A DNA stretch of 20,633 bases from positions 1 to 20,633 of IMG/VR virus record IMGVR_UViG_3300011114_000537, one strand, 5' to 3'. A model generated the notes under the pieces. It saw only the letters and a list, made by a program, of their open reading frames with translations, was not told where the DNA came from and ran no database searches. Position numbers and translations under genes: made by a program. Within the stretch, counting starts at the first letter, position 1, and each line of letters begins with the position of its first letter. This stretch comes from a virus. Below are positions 1 to 20,633 of this stretch, piece by piece.

Positions 1-3000
1 AAAGGTACCGCGATAGGTATAGCGGCGGAAGTACCAACTGAGCTTATACAAACCGCACTGGGGCGGTGGAACGCTAGGCAGTCTTTGACGGACGAGGCTG
101 CCCAAAAGGAATACGCGGAGACCGCGTTCCAAGCGTCCCTTATTTCCCCGGTTGGCGCGGTTGGTCGCCTAGTAGAACGGGGTGCTGCACGCGGGCAGGT
201 CGCTGAGAAAAAAGAAGCGGAAGAGGCAGCCACGGCTGCTGCGGCACGTGCTGAGTCTGAGCGGGTCAAGGCTGAGAAGGCGCAGGCAGCGCGGGACAAG
301 GCGCTTACTGATGCCGTGGAGTACCTTGGTAAGGTCCAGACTAGCGAAGTAAAGCCCAATTTGTTCAAGGCTAGGGCGCTTGTTCGTGGTATGGGTTACG
401 AGATACCTAGCGGCGCGAAGACCGAAGAAGTCATGGGGCTTCTCAACAGTATCGTGAGTGGTGAGCAGATTAAGCCGACCGCGCCTGTCACTCCGACCGC
501 TCCCACCGCTCCTACTACCCCTGCTGCGGCTCCGTCCGCAACGGGCGTTGACATAGATATGCTAACTTCTGGGCAATTTGAAACGCCTAGCCCGGCCCTA
601 CCGGAGGCACCAAGTGGAGCTATTACACCCTCTGTTGGCGAAGCTGTCGGTGTCGCAGCTGGAAGAGGCGCTGGCGTGCCTCCATCTGGAGTTGGAGCCG
701 CAGAGCCAAGCGTTGCTAGACCTCAAGGCGCAGGAGTGGGTCCTGCTGTCGGTGCTGTTGAAACACCTGATGTTGGAGAAGGGGCAGTCCAGCCTGCACT
801 GACAGAAGTTCCAGCTATCGAGGCAGTTAAGCCCGCTGAAGCTCTTGATATGGAGCCTACTACTCCTGTTGAATCTGATTTGCGGGAGGGGGATGCAGTA
901 CGCGTTGGAGGTATACCCGGCACAGTAATTGGCCTTGAAGGTGCGTATGTAAAGTTCAGACCCGTAACTGCTAAGTCAGAAAAAGCATTTCAACGTGTAC
1001 CTGCTTCTATGGTCACGTTCGAGTCTAGACCGACTGACGACCTCGTATCTGCGTCTAAAAAAGTTGAAGAACAATTTGGCGAAGAAGCCGGTAAGTTACT
1101 AGTAGATAAAGAATCGATGTTCCAGTTGCTGGGCGGCAACATGTATGGATCTAACATCGCAGATGTAGCCGTAAAAGAAATGTTGCAAAACTCTTTTGAC
1201 GCAGTCAAAGAAAGCGTAAAGAAAGGGCAGTACGATAGCGGCAACATTGACATATCGCTCGACCCAGAAGATAGAACAATGACCATCGAAGATAACGGTG
1301 TTGGTATGACGCCTGATATCGTTCGCAAAGCGTTTTTTACTATCGGCGGATCAGCTAAAGACCTCGACCCAACTGAAATTAGCGGTGGTTTTGGTTTGGC
1401 GAAGATGGGCGTCCTTATGGGCGCTAAACATATAAATTTAGAGACTGTTAGAGACGGTATTAAAACTACAGTCAGCACTTCTAGAGACGACATCTCTAAA
1501 GACAATTTCAAGATTGTCAAAACAAGTGCGCCAGAAAACGTACATGGAACTAAAGTTACGTTGACTATTCCAGAAACCTACGTAGACAAAAAAGGTGAAC
1601 CTCAGCCTATTTGGTTTCCACGCACAGCAACCGGCTTATCTATTCTTAATAAAGCGTTGGTCGGTCCAGCGAAAGTGACATTCAAGAACGCTAGACGGGA
1701 CGATAAATCATCTGAACTATCTCTGGGTACTGGATTTGACCTTGAAAAAACCCCTAAACTCACCACGGCTGAAACCGATTGGGGGTATATAGATGTTTAT
1801 ATGGGTGTGGAGCGTAATAAAAGCCCTGACCATCAAATATTGTCTAGCGGTGTTTGGCAATTCAATCATAATTTCTCATTGAATCTAAATGAATTAATTC
1901 CTTATGATTTAGTGGTCAATATAAGGTCTAAGGTACCTGCTAAAGATGTCGACTACCCTTTTACTAACTCGCGAGAAGCTTTTAAGCCTCGGGTAAAAGA
2001 AGATATTGAGGCGCTACAGGCTTTTATTCGGCAGGTCGCTAGAGGCGAAGAAGCTAAGGGCTTACAACAGTCATTCAAAGATATAGTGCAAATGCCTCGC
2101 GTCGAGGCTGGCGAGGATCTCAAAGAAGCTAGTAACAAGCTACGTAAAGTATTTGATAAACGCCGAGAAGAAACAGCCGGACTTAGGACGGTTGTTCCAG
2201 ACATGCCGAAAACCATTTTTATCGATAATGGCGGCGTAACCGACAAAATTGGTAGAACAATTATTGAGCCGGTTAAAACTAGCGATGTAACTAAAAAAGC
2301 TACATTTGAGGCAAATAAAGCCACGCCTACGGCTGATGAATTTAAGATTGTCCTAGAACAAGACCCTAAGCTACCGCTATTCCACAACAATACTAATGTG
2401 GATTACATAGAAATTGGGGATAAATACGGTGATCCTCGTAAGTTCTTCGCTGAACTGGGGACCATTGTAATCGAAATGAAAGAGGCGCTAGGCAATAGTG
2501 GTATGTTTGGGTGGCCCCGTTCTTACGATGTACTCAAACCAGAAAATATGTTTTTTGCTGGTATATCTATCGATAAAGAATATGGTGGGGTGCATCTAAA
2601 ATCTATCCCATACAAAGCTATCTACTTAAACCCGTTCTATGAATGGGGTGCTGAATCTCTATTTGGTATACGTTCAAATATTTATGAAACTATAACGCAT
2701 GAGTTGGCGCATACTGGGGATATGGATCATGGTGTTGCACACAACGCCGAAATGGTTAAAGTCCGTCAATATCTTGCTGACGAAGGTCTTGAAGACTATT
2801 TCCGAGACGCAATATTAAAGACTCTTGTAAATCATGAGTCTGCTTTTACAGCCATGAAGGAGGCGTATGGACGCTCAACGACAAAAAATAATGCAAAGTC
2901 TCTTGAAGAGTACAATAAAAACACCTCCTCAGCATCGGCTAGAGGAAGTAAGACAGGCGCTAAAGGTACACCACGGGCTGTACCGGCAGGAGGGGGACAA

Positions 3001-6000
3001 GGAGGGAGAGGCGCTATACCTCCCGCTGGTGCAAGCGGCGCAGCAGGCCCGGTCGGTCGAGGAGCTGGTAAACCTGCTCCAGTAGGCCCAGTAGACAATA
3101 AGGGCCGGTCCCCAGAGCAGGCGATAAATAACCGGCAGAATACCTATAAGCAGAGGTTTAGTAAGCCGCGCCTGATTGATAGGATTCTTAAGTATCTGTG
3201 GGGTAAAGACGCTGGCGGTCTGGCGCTGGACAGCTACGAGGCCCTAGTCAAGAAGTTCCAGAACGACTTGCGCCCGGCTTTCGCCTTGGAAAGGGAGCTC
3301 CGGCGTGCCGATAGCCTAGTTACGTTCGGCCCGGACATGAACGACGCGGCCTCTAAGATCGCCGCTGCGCCGGATAAAGCTGCGTGGCTAGTCTCTAACA
3401 TGCTTAAGAGGCCAATGGACAACGCCTATAAGCTTATTACGAGCTATGCCAAGTCCAGAAACCTGACAACTGACCAAGCCATAGAAGAGCTAGACCGCTT
3501 CCGTATCGTACTGCACGAGCCAGAACGCCGGATGATTATGTTTATGCGCTATGCGCCGCTTAGTACGAAGCGCCGTGCATTCAAAGACTCCAGCGGTAAG
3601 ACCATTCAGATCAGCCCAGCAGAGATCCGTGATTCTATTTTGAAGAGCCTCGTCACGCCCGGCAACGACCTAGTAGCCAACGGGCAGGCAGAGAAGCTGC
3701 ACGGAGTCCTCAAAGCTCTAGTGATGGACAAGAACAATCTTGATCCGCTCGGCGATAGCCCGATTAAGCGTGAGGGCAAGCCACTCAGCCTCGACATCAA
3801 TGATGACCAGTATAGCGTGCTTGCTGGCTATAGCCCCGCTTTTATCAAGGAGTGGGGCAATACTTTCGACGCGCTTGGCAAACAGAAGCCCGCTGCCGAA
3901 GCGGCTATCAAGGCCATAGAAGACGTACAGGATGTTACCAAAGAGCTTAACCGTATGGCTAAGTACTGGACCAAGCCAGTGGATAACATCGTCGCTTTCT
4001 ACAACTTCAAGCATTACACCCCATTCAAAGGCGTTCCGGGTGTAAAAACCAGAACTGAAGCGGAAATGACCGACCCGAATGATGTCCGTATCAGTGGCGA
4101 ATTTGCTGACGCAGACCAAGCGATGGAGGGTCGTGAATCGGAAGCCGACAACTCTGTTCTTCAATCCTTCTCGGATGCCATGTATGCAGCGTCAAGAGCA
4201 GGTCGTGCGGGCGTGACTGAGGCGGTCAAGAATTTGATCGAGCAAGGCCACATTGCCGGTCGGAAAATTGCTGAGATCACCCACGAACAGCGCTGGCTAG
4301 ATAAAGACTTTAATCTCAAGAAATACAAAGGCAAGAACAAGCTATTTCATTACACTGACAATGGCACCATCGAGGTCTACCAGATAGCCAGTAAGGACTT
4401 GGCGTTCCTAGAGGCCATCCGCCGTCCGTACCAAGTAGATAACTGGGCAACCAAGGCGGCTAATAGCATTACGGGCTGGATGGGGCAGATGCATACACGG
4501 TTTAATCCGGCGTTCGCCCCGCTTAACTTCCCCCGCGATATCTTCACTAACACTCTGGCTATCTCTGCTGACGTTGGTGGCAAAGAGGCTCTTAGCTACC
4601 TATCAGATGCGTTGTTCCGCAACGTGATGAAGGGTGGCCTGTTCAAGTCTGGCAAAGTATCCAAGCTGATCAGCGAAAATAAGATCTCGGAGCTTCGTGC
4701 GTTAGCTAAGAAAGACCCGTTCTACGCCGATGTCCTTGAGCTCATGGAGGAGGGTGGCCGCACCGCCTACCAGCAGGCGTTCAATATTCAAGCTCAGGCA
4801 GAAGAACTGGAAAAGATGCTTGGGCCAAACGGCGTTGCTAAGATGGGCAAGGCTAGTATGGACGCCATCGCTAAGTGGGCTGACGTTTACAACGACGCGT
4901 TCGAGTTTACTAACCGGGTGTCGGCCTACGGAATAATGAAGAACAACGCGCTTGCCAATCTTAAGCGCAAGTTCAAGGAGCGGAATAACCGAGAGCCGAA
5001 CGAGAAAGAACTCGCGGCCATGACCAAAGCAGCGCGCTCTGAAGGTGCGGCGTTTGCTAAGAATCTCGCTAACTTCCGACTCATAGGCAGCGCAGGAAGA
5101 CAGGCGGGCGCTCTATTTATGTTCTTCCGTGCCAGTGCTACCGGCGCTGTAAGAGCGATTGATTCTGTTTTGCCTGCACTCGTTGACGAAAAGACCGCGT
5201 TGTCTAGGGCCCCGGCGAGTATTCGTGATGACCCACAAAAAGTTAAGGTCTATCTAAAGAACTACCGCGAGAACAAGAATCGGGCTCAGTGGACCATGTT
5301 CACAGCTGCGGCGGCTGGCGCATTCTTGTACTCGCTAGCACTGGCGGGCGCGGATGACGATGAGGCTGGGCGCAACAGGGTCGCTACTGATGATATGGCC
5401 CGGTGGACGCGGTACGCTCGGCTGCCCATCCTTGGCAAGGACACGGTCCTCCAGATCCCGTGGGGCTTCGGTATCTCATCGTTCGGAGCCTTGGGTGCTC
5501 AGGTTGCAGCGCTCGCTCACGGTAACCAGACTCCTAAAAACATGGCGGCTAACACGATTAACATCGCATTTGATTCGTTTATCCCGCTACCAAAGTCGAA
5601 CATCAACATATTCGATAACTTCACAGGGTTTTTGGTGGACTCCGCCACCCCGACCATGTTGAGACCGTGGGTTGAGTTCGCCATGAACACTGACAGTCTT
5701 GGTAACGAGATCTACAACTCCCGGCAGATCCGATACAGCGATGCCTTCACGGGTGGTACGAACATACCAGACCTTTATAAGGACATTGCGAGGGGGGTAC
5801 TAGACAGTACGGGGGTAGATATTAGCCCGAGTAGTATTAACTTCTGGGCTGTCAACTATGCCGATGCACTGAGTCGCGTGGCTACTTCGACCTACGACTT
5901 AAGGTTGTTTGCCTCCGGGCAGCGTGAGCTCCGCAGCGTTGACGATCTGGGTAAGCTCCTCCTGCCGTTCGATAGCTTTATTGGGACCAGATCGAACTAC

Positions 6001-6321
6001 GACGGTAGGCAGTTCGAGGCAGCGGTCGAGAAGATCACCGATAAACAGAAGCGGATTAAGGCCCTCGAAGACCGCCCCGAAGCGTTGGCTAAATACATTG
6101 ACATGCACCCTACTGACCTAGAGCTCGTTGACTTCTACAACAACGCGGTTAACGGAGAGTTGAAGTACCTGCGCGAGAACGCCAACGACATTCGCCTTTC
6201 GAGGGAACTCACTTCACAGCAGAAACGCGACATGCTTAAAGAGAACACCCGTATGCAGAATATCGCCAAGCGTAATTTGATCGACGCATTCAAGCTATAC
6301 GGGGTCTCTCCAGAAAACTAG
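1..6321 (+). CDS. Giant phage large polyvalent protein (GHKL ATPase, zincin, LPD38-like), 5' partial
   Basis: The frame is open from base 1, so the start lies upstream and at least 2106 residues are encoded; a TTG at 85 is only an internal codon. Numbered from that TTG: alanine- and charge-rich coiled coil (about 40-75), Pro/Thr/Ala linker (about 130-152), GHKL/HSP90-like ATPase with N-box E365..QNSFDA, G1 DNGVGM (403-408) and G2 GGFGLAKMG (434-442), zincin motif HELAH (872-876) with further His residues after it, a Gly/Pro linker (about 968-1002), a long helical region, an LPD38-like block starting near FNPAFAPLNFPRD (1473), and one hydrophobic segment (about 1736-1756). Such giant proteins are known from phages as multi-domain proteins, often thought to be packaged and injected with DNA; that role is inferred here. 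Bases about 840-2935, carrying the ATPase and protease, are much more AT-rich than the flanks. The stop TAG overlaps the stop of the converging gene. Confidence 0.85.
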   Translation, partial: KGTAIGIAAEVPTELIQTALGRWNARQSLTDEAAQKEYAETAFQASLISPVGAVGRLVERGAARGQVAEKKEAEEAATAAAARAESERVKAEKAQAARDKALTDAVEYLGKVQTSEVKPNLFKARALVRGMGYEIPSGAKTEEVMGLLNSIVSGEQIKPTAPVTPTAPTAPTTPAAAPSATGVDIDMLTSGQFETPSPALPEAPSGAITPSVGEAVGVAAGRGAGVPPSGVGAAEPSVARPQGAGVGPAVGAVETPDVGEGAVQPALTEVPAIEAVKPAEALDMEPTTPVESDLREGDAVRVGGIPGTVIGLEGAYVKFRPVTAKSEKAFQRVPASMVTFESRPTDDLVSASKKVEEQFGEEAGKLLVDKESMFQLLGGNMYGSNIADVAVKEMLQNSFDAVKESVKKGQYDSGNIDISLDPEDRTMTIEDNGVGMTPDIVRKAFFTIGGSAKDLDPTEISGGFGLAKMGVLMGAKHINLETVRDGIKTTVSTSRDDISKDNFKIVKTSAPENVHGTKVTLTIPETYVDKKGEPQPIWFPRTATGLSILNKALVGPAKVTFKNARRDDKSSELSLGTGFDLEKTPKLTTAETDWGYIDVYMGVERNKSPDHQILSSGVWQFNHNFSLNLNELIPYDLVVNIRSKVPAKDVDYPFTNSREAFKPRVKEDIEALQAFIRQVARGEEAKGLQQSFKDIVQMPRVEAGEDLKEASNKLRKVFDKRREETAGLRTVVPDMPKTIFIDNGGVTDKIGRTIIEPVKTSDVTKKATFEANKATPTADEFKIVLEQDPKLPLFHNNTNVDYIEIGDKYGDPRKFFAELGTIVIEMKEALGNSGMFGWPRSYDVLKPENMFFAGISIDKEYGGVHLKSIPYKAIYLNPFYEWGAESLFGIRSNIYETITHELAHTGDMDHGVAHNAEMVKVRQYLADEGLEDYFRDAILKTLVNHESAFTAMKEAYGRSTTKNNAKSLEEYNKNTSSASARGSKTGAKGTPRAVPAGGGQGGRGAIPPAGASGAAGPVGRGAGKPAPVGPVDNKGRSPEQAINNRQNTYKQRFSKPRLIDRILKYLWGKDAGGLALDSYEALVKKFQNDLRPAFALERELRRADSLVTFGPDMNDAASKIAAAPDKAAWLVSNMLKRPMDNAYKLITSYAKSRNLTTDQAIEELDRFRIVLHEPERRMIMFMRYAPLSTKRRAFKDSSGKTIQISPAEIRDSILKSLVTPGNDLVANGQAEKLHGVLKALVMDKNNLDPLGDSPIKREGKPLSLDINDDQYSVLAGYSPAFIKEWGNTFDALGKQKPAAEAAIKAIEDVQDVTKELNRMAKYWTKPVDNIVAFYNFKHYTPFKGVPGVKTRTEAEMTDPNDVRISGEFADADQAMEGRESEADNSVLQSFSDAMYAASRAGRAGVTEAVKNLIEQGHIAGRKIAEITHEQRWLDKDFNLKKYKGKNKLFHYTDNGTIEVYQIASKDLAFLEAIRRPYQVDNWATKAANSITGWMGQMHTRFNPAFAPLNFPRDIFTNTLAISADVGGKEALSYLSDALFRNVMKGGLFKSGKVSKLISENKISELRALAKKDPFYADVLELMEEGGRTAYQQAFNIQAQAEELEKMLGPNGVAKMGKASMDAIAKWADVYNDAFEFTNRVSAYGIMKNNALANLKRKFKERNNREPNEKELAAMTKAARSEGAAFAKNLANFRLIGSAGRQAGALFMFFRASATGAVRAIDSVLPALVDEKTALSRAPASIRDDPQKVKVYLKNYRENKNRAQWTMFTAAAAGAFLYSLALAGADDDEAGRNRVATDDMARWTRYARLPILGKDTVLQIPWGFGISSFGALGAQVAALAHGNQTPKNMAANTINIAFDSFIPLPKSNINIFDNFTGFLVDSATPTMLRPWVEFAMNTDSLGNEIYNSRQIRYSDAFTGGTNIPDLYKDIARGVLDSTGVDISPSSINFWAVNYADALSRVATSTYDLRLFASGQRELRSVDDLGKLLLPFDSFIGTRSNYDGRQFEAAVEKITDKQKRIKALEDRPEALAKYIDMHPTDLELVDFYNNAVNGELKYLRENANDIRLSRELTSQQKRDMLKENTRMQNIAKRNLIDAFKLYGVSPEN

Positions 6322-18672: not shown

Positions 18673-18875
18673 ACGTTGATCCCCAGCCCGACCTTGCGGA
18701 ACAATTCCATGACGCGCTCGTCGCAACCATCTACGTTATGAAGGTCGTACAACTCTGCGATAAGCGTCCGCGCTTGGTGCACGGTCTTCATCTCACCTGA
18801 AGTAAGCATATAGTCTCTCTCCAGTTTGCGAAGTCGCTCCAAGATATTCGTACCCGTGTGAACTTTGCCGTCCAT
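18669..18875 (-). CDS. Small protein with shared N-terminal module (68 aa)
   Basis: The N-terminus is the GKVHTGTNILERLRKLERDY module, followed by a different tail (TSGEMKTVHQARTLIAELYD...). The same module begins the gene upstream at 18888-19277. ATG at 18873-18875 has AAGGAG 8 bases upstream; an ATG two codons earlier (18881) is only 2 bases from the same site and is less likely. Function unknown. Confidence 0.65.
   Translation of the reverse strand: MDGKVHTGTNILERLRKLERDYMLTSGEMKTVHQARTLIAELYDLHNVDGCDERVMELFRKVGLGINV
18805..18869. repeat. 65-bp direct repeat, copy 1
   Basis: This stretch matches 19204-19268 at 64 of 65 positions (one A/G change). It encodes the shared N-terminal module of two different small genes in the same frame and orientation. 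Confidence 0.92.
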
Positions 18876-18887
18876 TGTCATAACTCC

Positions 18888-19277
18888 TTAGAACATGCTC
18901 AGGATCTGATCCACGTGAGCCTTGGTGTTGTGACGTAACGTGTCATCCTTACGCAGATCCTTGGCAGTAATACCGACCAGAGCCCTCTCGACTTCCTGCC
19001 GTGCTGCTTCCAGCTTTGTGTCATTGGTCACGTTCAGCCGGGTCAGCATGCCGCATAGCTCAACCGCGTTCTCGACAAGTGAGTCGCGGAATATCTGCTT
19101 CTCAGCGCCAGCCAGCTTCTCACTCATATGCTTCAGGCAGTCATGCAGCCTACCCCATGCGTCCTGCATAGCGGCGTTGATGCGCTCATCCGATATTTTC
19201 TTCAGCATATAGTCTCTCTCCAGTTTGCGAAGTCGCTCCAAGATGTTCGTACCCGTGTGAACTTTGCCACTCATCAT
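18888..19277 (-). CDS. Helical protein with shared N-terminal module (129 aa)
   Basis: Starts at the ATG overlapping the upstream stop as ATGA (19274-19277), with AAGG 8 bases upstream; a longer in-frame reading to 19514 would run over the zinc-motif gene. Residues 4-25 are the repeated module (KVHTGTNILERLRKLERDYM). The rest is helical (SDERINAAMQDAWGR; then AGAEKQIFRDSLVENAVEL). No family recognised. Confidence 0.65.
   Translation of the reverse strand: MMSGKVHTGTNILERLRKLERDYMLKKISDERINAAMQDAWGRLHDCLKHMSEKLAGAEKQIFRDSLVENAVELCGMLTRLNVTNDTKLEAARQEVERALVGITAKDLRKDDTLRHNTKAHVDQILSMF
19204..19268. repeat. 65-bp direct repeat, copy 2
   Basis: The second copy of the module, at the start of the 129-aa gene. 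Sequence outside the repeat is unrelated by eye on both sides, so the repeat ends sharply. Confidence 0.92.
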
Positions 19278-19854: not shown

Positions 19855-20273
19855 ACTGTTACCTCCTGATCTGCTTCGTCACTTAACGTCACTTGGTCAC
19901 CTAGCATTTTCGCGACATAACAACGCATGGCGGCGACGAGGGGTGTTGGGCCATAGATACAGAACCCGTAGTCTGGATGCGTTGCCTCCCAGTGGCCGGA
20001 CTCCCAGCCGACATTAAACAGCCCACGAGTGCCAGAGCGAGTGTCGCCTAGGCGCATCAAGTTGATGCCCTCCGCCTCTATTATTGGGCCGCCCTGCTCC
20101 CACAACGCGGTCGGCGAGAACCGCACCCAGTCACGCGCGTGCCGGTCGTAGGCTTCGTAGAACCTACCTCGTCGGTTGTACCGTACTTTCCGCCCGACGC
20201 AACGCGCTACCAAGAAGTCGAGCTCAATTTCGTCCAACTCTCGCACCCCTCGCACCTCGCGCACCCCGCTCAT
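19851..20273 (-). CDS. NinX/DUF2591-like protein (140 aa)
   Basis: The 140-aa product shows the sequence features of DUF2591 (phage NinX-type): an early ELDEIELDFLVARCVG, then FSPTALWEQGGPIIEAEGI (52-70) and the closing YGPTPLVAAMRCYVA (107-121). The ATG at 20271-20273 overlaps the ArdC-like stop as ATGA, with GGAGG about 4 bases upstream; a longer reading to 20450 runs inside ArdC. The family lies in phage ninR-type regions, and its role is unknown. Confidence 0.8.
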   Translation of the reverse strand: MSGVREVRGVRELDEIELDFLVARCVGRKVRYNRRGRFYEAYDRHARDWVRFSPTALWEQGGPIIEAEGINLMRLGDTRSGTRGLFNVGWESGHWEATHPDYGFCIYGPTPLVAAMRCYVAKMLGDQVTLSDEADQEVTV

Positions 20274-20633
20274 GCGGCCTCCTGCACGGCCTGCTCGGCC
20301 TGCTTGGACATGATGTAGTCTGCGGCCTTCTGCGCGTCGCTGGCTGCCCGGACAATGGCCTTCGAGTCGGCCTTCAGCACCTTTAGCCATGAGGCGAGGT
20401 ATTGCGCATGATCGATCCGGGGGGTGTTGGTGATGCCCAGTCGCGCGCACAGGAACGCTGCCCCCAGTTCCGCTACAAGTTCTTCCCCCGCGTAGGCTTC
20501 ATCGCCGAAGCGGCTCGAACGGGTGAAGTCACGGTCTAGTCGGGTCTTGTGTCCGGTCCAGTGGGTCAGTTCATGCAGCAGGGTGCTGTAGTAAGACTCA
20601 GTAGCGGTGCTGGTCTCAGTACCAGTGAACGCG
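20270..20633 (-). CDS. ArdC-like antirestriction zincin protease, 5' partial
   Basis: The C-terminal 120 residues are visible; the start lies beyond the right edge. It contains HELTHWTGH (zinc site H-E-x2-H and a third His, window residues 20-28) and EELVAELGAAFLC, typical of the C-terminal zincin domain of ArdC-type proteins. The N-terminal ssDNA-binding domain is not in the window. ArdC proteins are known to protect incoming plasmid or phage DNA from restriction. The C-terminus overlaps the next gene as ATGA. Confidence 0.85.
   Translation of the reverse strand, partial: AFTGTETSTATESYYSTLLHELTHWTGHKTRLDRDFTRSSRFGDEAYAGEELVAELGAAFLCARLGITNTPRIDHAQYLASWLKVLKADSKAIVRAASDAQKAADYIMSKQAEQAVQEAA

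Follow-up and report, generated by a model that had tools for sequence, protein, structure and literature searches.

A giant phage polyvalent protein carries an Hsp90-like ATPase and zincin-like module at a cassette-exchange site

We asked what an AT-rich island inside a giant phage gene encodes, whether it behaves as an exchangeable cassette or as an ancestral part of the protein, and what its product might do. The window, which is the whole stretch of DNA analysed, is a 20,633-base virus fragment from IMG/VR (IMGVR_UViG_3300011114_000537). It begins inside the giant open reading frame (1-6321, + strand, 5'-open), of which at least 2106 residues are visible; the N-terminus of the protein and its own upstream genes lie beyond the 5' end of the record. 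Downstream, the minus strand encodes a primase/helicase, an SNF2 helicase, a DNA polymerase and further phage genes. Pfam places HATPase_c_3 at residues 389-515 (E = 8.7e-15) and LPD38 at residues 1801-1978 (E = 1.7e-17) of the giant protein. By size and domain content the protein is of the polyvalent type, with 2106 residues visible, the LPD38 match, and full-length relatives of 2074-3998 residues that carry the same module.

A sequence-only reading had described the island as AT-rich, with a sharp right edge near 2935 and a shift of arginine codons from CGN to AGA. Sliding GC and codon-usage analysis confirms the island itself. GC measured over 300 bases is 0.38-0.46 across about 900-2850 and 0.50-0.61 on both flanks, and scan and least-squares breakpoints agree on a segment at 553-3093 (z = -15.9, against a minimum of -4.2 in 200 simulations). 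Within the exchangeable part (808-3084), GC is 0.440 and GC3 0.362, compared with 0.531 and 0.619 expected if its amino acids were encoded as in the remainder of the window. Because this shift is almost wholly synonymous, the low GC does not come from protein composition. On the left, the compositional edge at 553 falls within a Pro/Ala linker, and the homology junction lies at about 807. The right edge is indeed sharp but is placed at about 3093 by codon usage: GC rises near 2935 because bases 2926-3084 encode Gly/Pro/Ala (GC 0.63 but GC3 0.28), and the foreign codon usage reaches about 3093. Arginine codons shift in the direction proposed without reaching significance (AGR in 12/34 in the cassette versus 53/250 elsewhere, p = 0.11).

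The low-GC segment encodes one module, in which an SH3/KOW-like barrel, a GHKL ATPase of the Hsp90/rIIA type with an Hsp90-like middle domain, and a zincin-like domain follow one another (Table 1). The GHKL motifs recognised earlier are upheld by the Pfam match and comprise an N box (E393-D400), G1 (D431-M436), G2 (G462-K468) and T517. E393, N397, D431, G462/G463/G465 and K468 are invariant in the 36 distinct sequences of the family described below, as are R658 and E659 of the middle domain (36/36). A profile search against the PDB finds HtpG at 9.9e-10, and NCBIfam HSP90 (8e-14) matches 36/36 members. The family alignment served to build an AlphaFold2 model (mean pLDDT 75), which Foldseek matches to HtpG/Hsp90 structures of the PDB at 1.9e-13, mostly through the N and middle domains, and alignment with an ordinary HtpG (L059) puts its SLNISRE on the YPFTNSRE of the module. 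Full-length HtpG scores fall far under the equivalog cut-offs (50.9 bits versus 455, and 39.7 versus 371), and no Hsp90 C-terminal dimerisation domain is recognised in the module, where the middle domain is followed by the zincin-like domain. In profile alignments the N domain resembles rIIA and HtpG to an equal degree, PHROG RIIA matches at 1e-6, and many rIIA proteins are among the viral fold matches; the likeness is confined to the N domain, with no full-length rIIA homology found. The top viral fold match, A0A516L4L2, aligns with the whole module (3e-40), so a viral homologue is already present in UniProt. The barrel ahead of the ATPase is kept in the family alignments and five-stranded in the model, with weak KOW2_Spt5 matches in 6/36 members. 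Among known defence families, only weak REase_II matches were obtained, through the GHKL domain.

Table 1. Features of the giant ORF and its cassette (positions in the window; domain edges are approximate).
Feature	Position	Strand	Basis
N-terminal part of the giant protein as visible, ending in a Pro/Ala/Gly linker	1..807	+	ORF open at 5'
Segment with shifted synonymous codon usage (AT-rich island)	553..3093	+	Change-point scan
Exchangeable cassette	808..3084	+	Homology breakpoints from L060 versus L066
Small SH3/KOW-like beta-barrel ahead of the ATPase, residues 295-344	883..1032	+	Alignments, model
GHKL/Bergerat ATPase domain, Hsp90/rIIA-like, residues 355-527	1063..1581	+	Pfam, profile, NCBIfam, motifs
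Hsp90-like middle domain, catalytic-loop motif YPFTNSRE	1582..2070	+	Alignment with HtpG of L059, Foldseek
Zincin-like domain, residues 786-970, HELAH 900-904, putative third ligand H910	2356..2910	+	HExxH conservation, AF2
Low-complexity Gly/Pro/Ala linker, right junction	2911..3081	+	Translation
C-terminal scaffold of the polyvalent protein; LPD38 match 5401-5934	3082..6318	+	Pfam; relatives L060, L010

The zincin motif noticed in the letters is also genuine as a motif: HELAHTGDMDH occupies residues 900-910, and HExxH is kept in 36/36 sequences (35 alignment rows, and L055, which has HELVH). The position ten after the first histidine of HExxH, a candidate third ligand, is His in most of the 36 and Glu in three; an Asp three positions past HExxH is found in only about one third of members. 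Within the module this domain is the best conserved, with 57-67 % identity to the window for most members of the main family. Modelled alone, it reaches an AF2 pLDDT of 86 and pTM of 0.84, with HExxH in a helix (model residues 116-132). Foldseek gives weak matches, Wss1, SPRTN and minigluzincins among them, with a best E of 0.42 and a probability no higher than 0.60. Wss1 has a histidine ten residues past the first His of HExxH, the same spacing as in the module; Wss1/SPRTN zincins are the best, albeit non-significant, fold neighbours, and the window differs from them in having no DNA-repair context. The domain has no significant match in Pfam, and MPTase-PolyVal (PF18818) is hit in 1/35 members at E 0.085, none significantly. 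The low-complexity linker shows no evident conserved cleavage site.

Neither the island nor the scaffold, used as a single-sequence query, gave matches in IMG/VR. The family was opened with the pattern HELAHTGD, which led to one IMG/VR contig whose module is 50 % identical over window residues 292-1025; the alignment of the two then found 47 IMG/VR loci, representing 36 sequences distinct at 95 %, window included. The relatives that bear the module are all metagenomic contigs, their modules are about 27-68 % identical to that of the window, and nearly all lie inside ORFs in the size range given above, the exceptions being truncated or possibly frameshifted. The C-terminal flanks fall into seven blastp groups in which LPD38 and LPD39 types dominate, and the N-terminal flanks vary too, with GNAT and ART domains in some members. 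A tree of the module shows nine changes of scaffold type versus six that would suffice, and some carriers show none of the replication genes of the window (in several, the downstream sequence is too short to judge). The scaffold alignment of twelve rows is too divergent for a scan. By these comparisons, the module is a widespread phage family and is more conserved than its scaffolds. The earlier idea of an effector cassette inserted into a conserved LPD38 scaffold holds in part: the cassette is discrete, but it is not a unique insertion, since the module is widespread and the scaffolds vary. A bacterial origin was considered and rejected, a genome scan having given a phage-like contig in a MAG (L057), a short fragment with internal stops (L058) and the HtpG of L059.

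Several family members have features of their own. In L044 (2978-3118), the module and the LPD39-type scaffold are in different frames, which is either a frameshift or a natural split. In L027, L030, L036 and their relatives, the LPD39-type scaffold has an HExxH domain (HEIVHAATE) directly after the module, so that these giants contain two HExxH domains. In L052 and L056, the module is nearly N-terminal in another giant protein, where a second HExxH domain (HEFSH) follows it, and L056 has a very AT-rich sequence.

Because the 47 loci were found through the module, how often it fills the slot can be judged only from searches for scaffold relatives that were independent of it. The contigs closest to the window, L060 and L067 (scaffold 74 %, primase 82 % and SNF2 86 % identical), are without the module; its position is taken by an unrelated cassette, which in L060 consists of MORN repeats and another HExxH domain. 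The sequence-only reading had taken homologous domains of normal composition in all close relatives as the sign of an ancestral origin, a pattern that these two contigs do not show. The GHKL-zincin module of L066 is a divergent one, with 28 % identity to that of the window. L060 and L066 share about 96 % DNA identity, both upstream of the giant gene and in the first 505 scaffold bases, yet they carry unrelated cassettes whose breakpoints map to about 807 and 3085 in the window; the comparison rests on assemblies, with 166 residues of the L066 scaffold visible. The block at 603-807 forms a left anchor common to the window, L060 (blastn 75.6 %) and L066 (77 %). Among LPD39-type scaffolds, too, some have the module and others lack it. 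Because near-identical L060 and L066 differ there and L060, a scaffold relative, lacks the module, the slot is, on the strength of these alignments, a real exchangeable cassette site in a giant polyvalent protein. Slot exchange is shown directly by this pair, whose different payloads lie between mapped junctions while the DNA outside the variable parts is about 96 % identical. The N-terminal parts of the giant proteins also differ between L060 (5795-7225) and L066 (6194-7543) despite the identity upstream, which points to a second variable region.

How the window came by its own copy is a separate matter. The scaffold of L010 is 61 % identical to that of the window, and its module is about 69 % identical, compared with a backbone identity of 61-75 %. 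Because module identity matches backbone identity, the common ancestor of the window and L010 probably had the module, and a recent one-off insertion into the lineage of the window is weakened. No flanking direct repeats of at least 12 bases were found as an insertion scar. Among relatives, GC3 of the module mostly tracks that of the host phage (r = 0.89) and is below that of the scaffold in 34/36 (mean -0.07). No family member deviates more in composition than the window (residual z = -3.2), so the module copy of the window may derive from an AT-richer phage.

What might such a cassette do? We tentatively favour, as plausible though short of probable, a reading in which an exchangeable ATPase-zincin cassette resides in a virion-carried giant protein and ATP switches on the zincin, which frees the payload and/or cuts a host protein. 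It builds on module anatomy, conservation of catalytic residues, repeated slot exchange and the zincin-like domain beside the scaffold, all read from sequence and models, to which we add by inference that the protein of this phage is in the virion, that ATP gates the zincin, that the zincin cleaves, and what it cuts. The giant protein is probably carried in the virion, where its LPD38 part would anchor it in the particle or the ejection machinery and deliver it. Since the virion presumably has no free ATP, arrival in the cytoplasm, where ATP is abundant, could be the trigger that closes the ATPase clamp and activates the zincin; control of the zincin by ATP is suggested by its constant coupling to an Hsp90-type ATPase. 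The activated zincin would then cut beside itself, freeing the payload from the scaffold, and/or cut a host or defence protein. That LPD38 giants can reside in virions is known from gp69 of phage JC1 (PMC9144972), and in L049 and L016 an upstream gene matches a DNA ejection protein family. The unrelated slot cassettes of L060, L063 and L064 likewise terminate with an HExxH domain directly ahead of the LPD38 part; against the reading, L065 has an LPD38-type scaffold with no HExxH. The virion RNA polymerase of coliphage N4, ejected as one chain, is alike in layout, with a payload, an HExxH domain and a large helical C-terminal domain (PMC12633501), and differs in that its payload is an RNA polymerase and it has no ATPase clamp. 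The tendency of slot cassettes to end in HExxH before LPD38, an order comparable to that of the N4 polymerase, favours a role in processing or release, and such a role has been proposed for polyvalent zincins in the polyvalent-protein survey (PMC5512222). The survey also notes that the N4 polymerase has a zincin yet is packaged unprocessed, which counts against processing (PMC5512222). A narrower version is unlikely in our estimate: an ATP-gated, virion-delivered metallopeptidase, housed in the exchangeable payload slot of giant ejection proteins, whose Hsp90-type clamp would read host ATP as a cytoplasm signal and only then switch on the fused zincin.

The module could instead be a trans-acting anti-host enzyme that would capture or remodel a host or defence protein through its ATPase and degrade it through its zincin, slot exchange being the trace of an arms race. 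We consider this possible but doubtful: near-identical phages hold different domains in the slot, the GNAT and ART domains in the N-terminal regions of some giants are as expected of effector payloads, and such roles are proposed for polyvalent proteins in the survey (PMC5512222), but the other HExxH domains at the same place beside the scaffold fit a processing role equally or better. The closeness of the N domain to rIIA, with the PHROG and fold matches given above, would also suit a chaperone that refolds the ejected giant or an rIIA-like anti-exclusion factor, with the zincin structural or inactive. We regard this as improbable, since the window, truncated at its 5' side, shows no rIIB partner gene, no Hsp90 dimerisation domain is recognised, and a dead zincin domain is unlikely when it is the most conserved part of the module and its HExxH is invariant. 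It is more improbable still that the island is an ordinary ancestral domain, with low GC from amino-acid composition or local mutation bias and no cassette exchange. The lower GC3 of the module in 34/36 relatives and the backbone-like identity of the L010 module fit such a history; against it, the composition of the window remains strongly deviant after correction for amino acids, the relative with the closest scaffold has no module, and phages 96 % identical differ exactly at the slot. L060 and L066 thus contradict an ancestral domain, unless those contigs are chimeric assemblies.

The favoured ATPase-zincin cassette is best placed among known systems by what it shares and what it lacks. Polyvalent proteins were earlier proposed from domain comparisons, and LPD38 polyvalent proteins (Iyer et al. 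2017, PMC5512222) resemble the protein of the window as giant multidomain phage proteins with LPD38, an HExxH zincin-like domain and a variable payload. The main text of that survey does not mention GHKL, Hsp90 or rIIA, whereas the module has a GHKL domain, and the zincin of the window differs in having no significant Pfam match. The DarB-like giant of the cultured Burkholderia phage JC1 (gp69, 4515 aa) has a C-terminal LPD38, and mass spectrometry shows it to be virion-associated; the domains listed for it are methylase/helicase-like and lytic transglycosylase-like, with no GHKL-zincin module reported (PMC9144972). Hsp90/HtpG/TRAP1 share the N-terminal ATPase fold and motifs and a middle domain with the SRE catalytic-loop motif, but have a C-terminal dimerisation domain where the module, itself part of a giant protein, has the zincin-like domain. 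T4 rIIA-like proteins are phage proteins with a GHKL N-terminal domain and a variable C-terminus; the module, in contrast, is not a stand-alone gene, ends in a zincin, and is about 25-31 % identical to them over the N domain only. In the literature searched, GHKL and zincin together were not found except in a jumbo-phage survey that treats the two apart. A fusion of an Hsp90-like ATPase and a zincin-like domain, conserved in dozens of phages, offers a concrete, testable protein for the switching or processing of ejected phage proteins in the host.

Two minor features lie elsewhere in the window. An ArdC-type anti-restriction protein fragment (20270-20632, - strand) has its own HExxH motif (HELTH) and runs off the right end (PHROG 7245, 6.4e-45). 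An exact duplication of about 41 bases (18805-18845 and 19204-19244) joins two adjacent minus-strand ORFs with a common start, GKVHTGTNILERLRKLERDYML.
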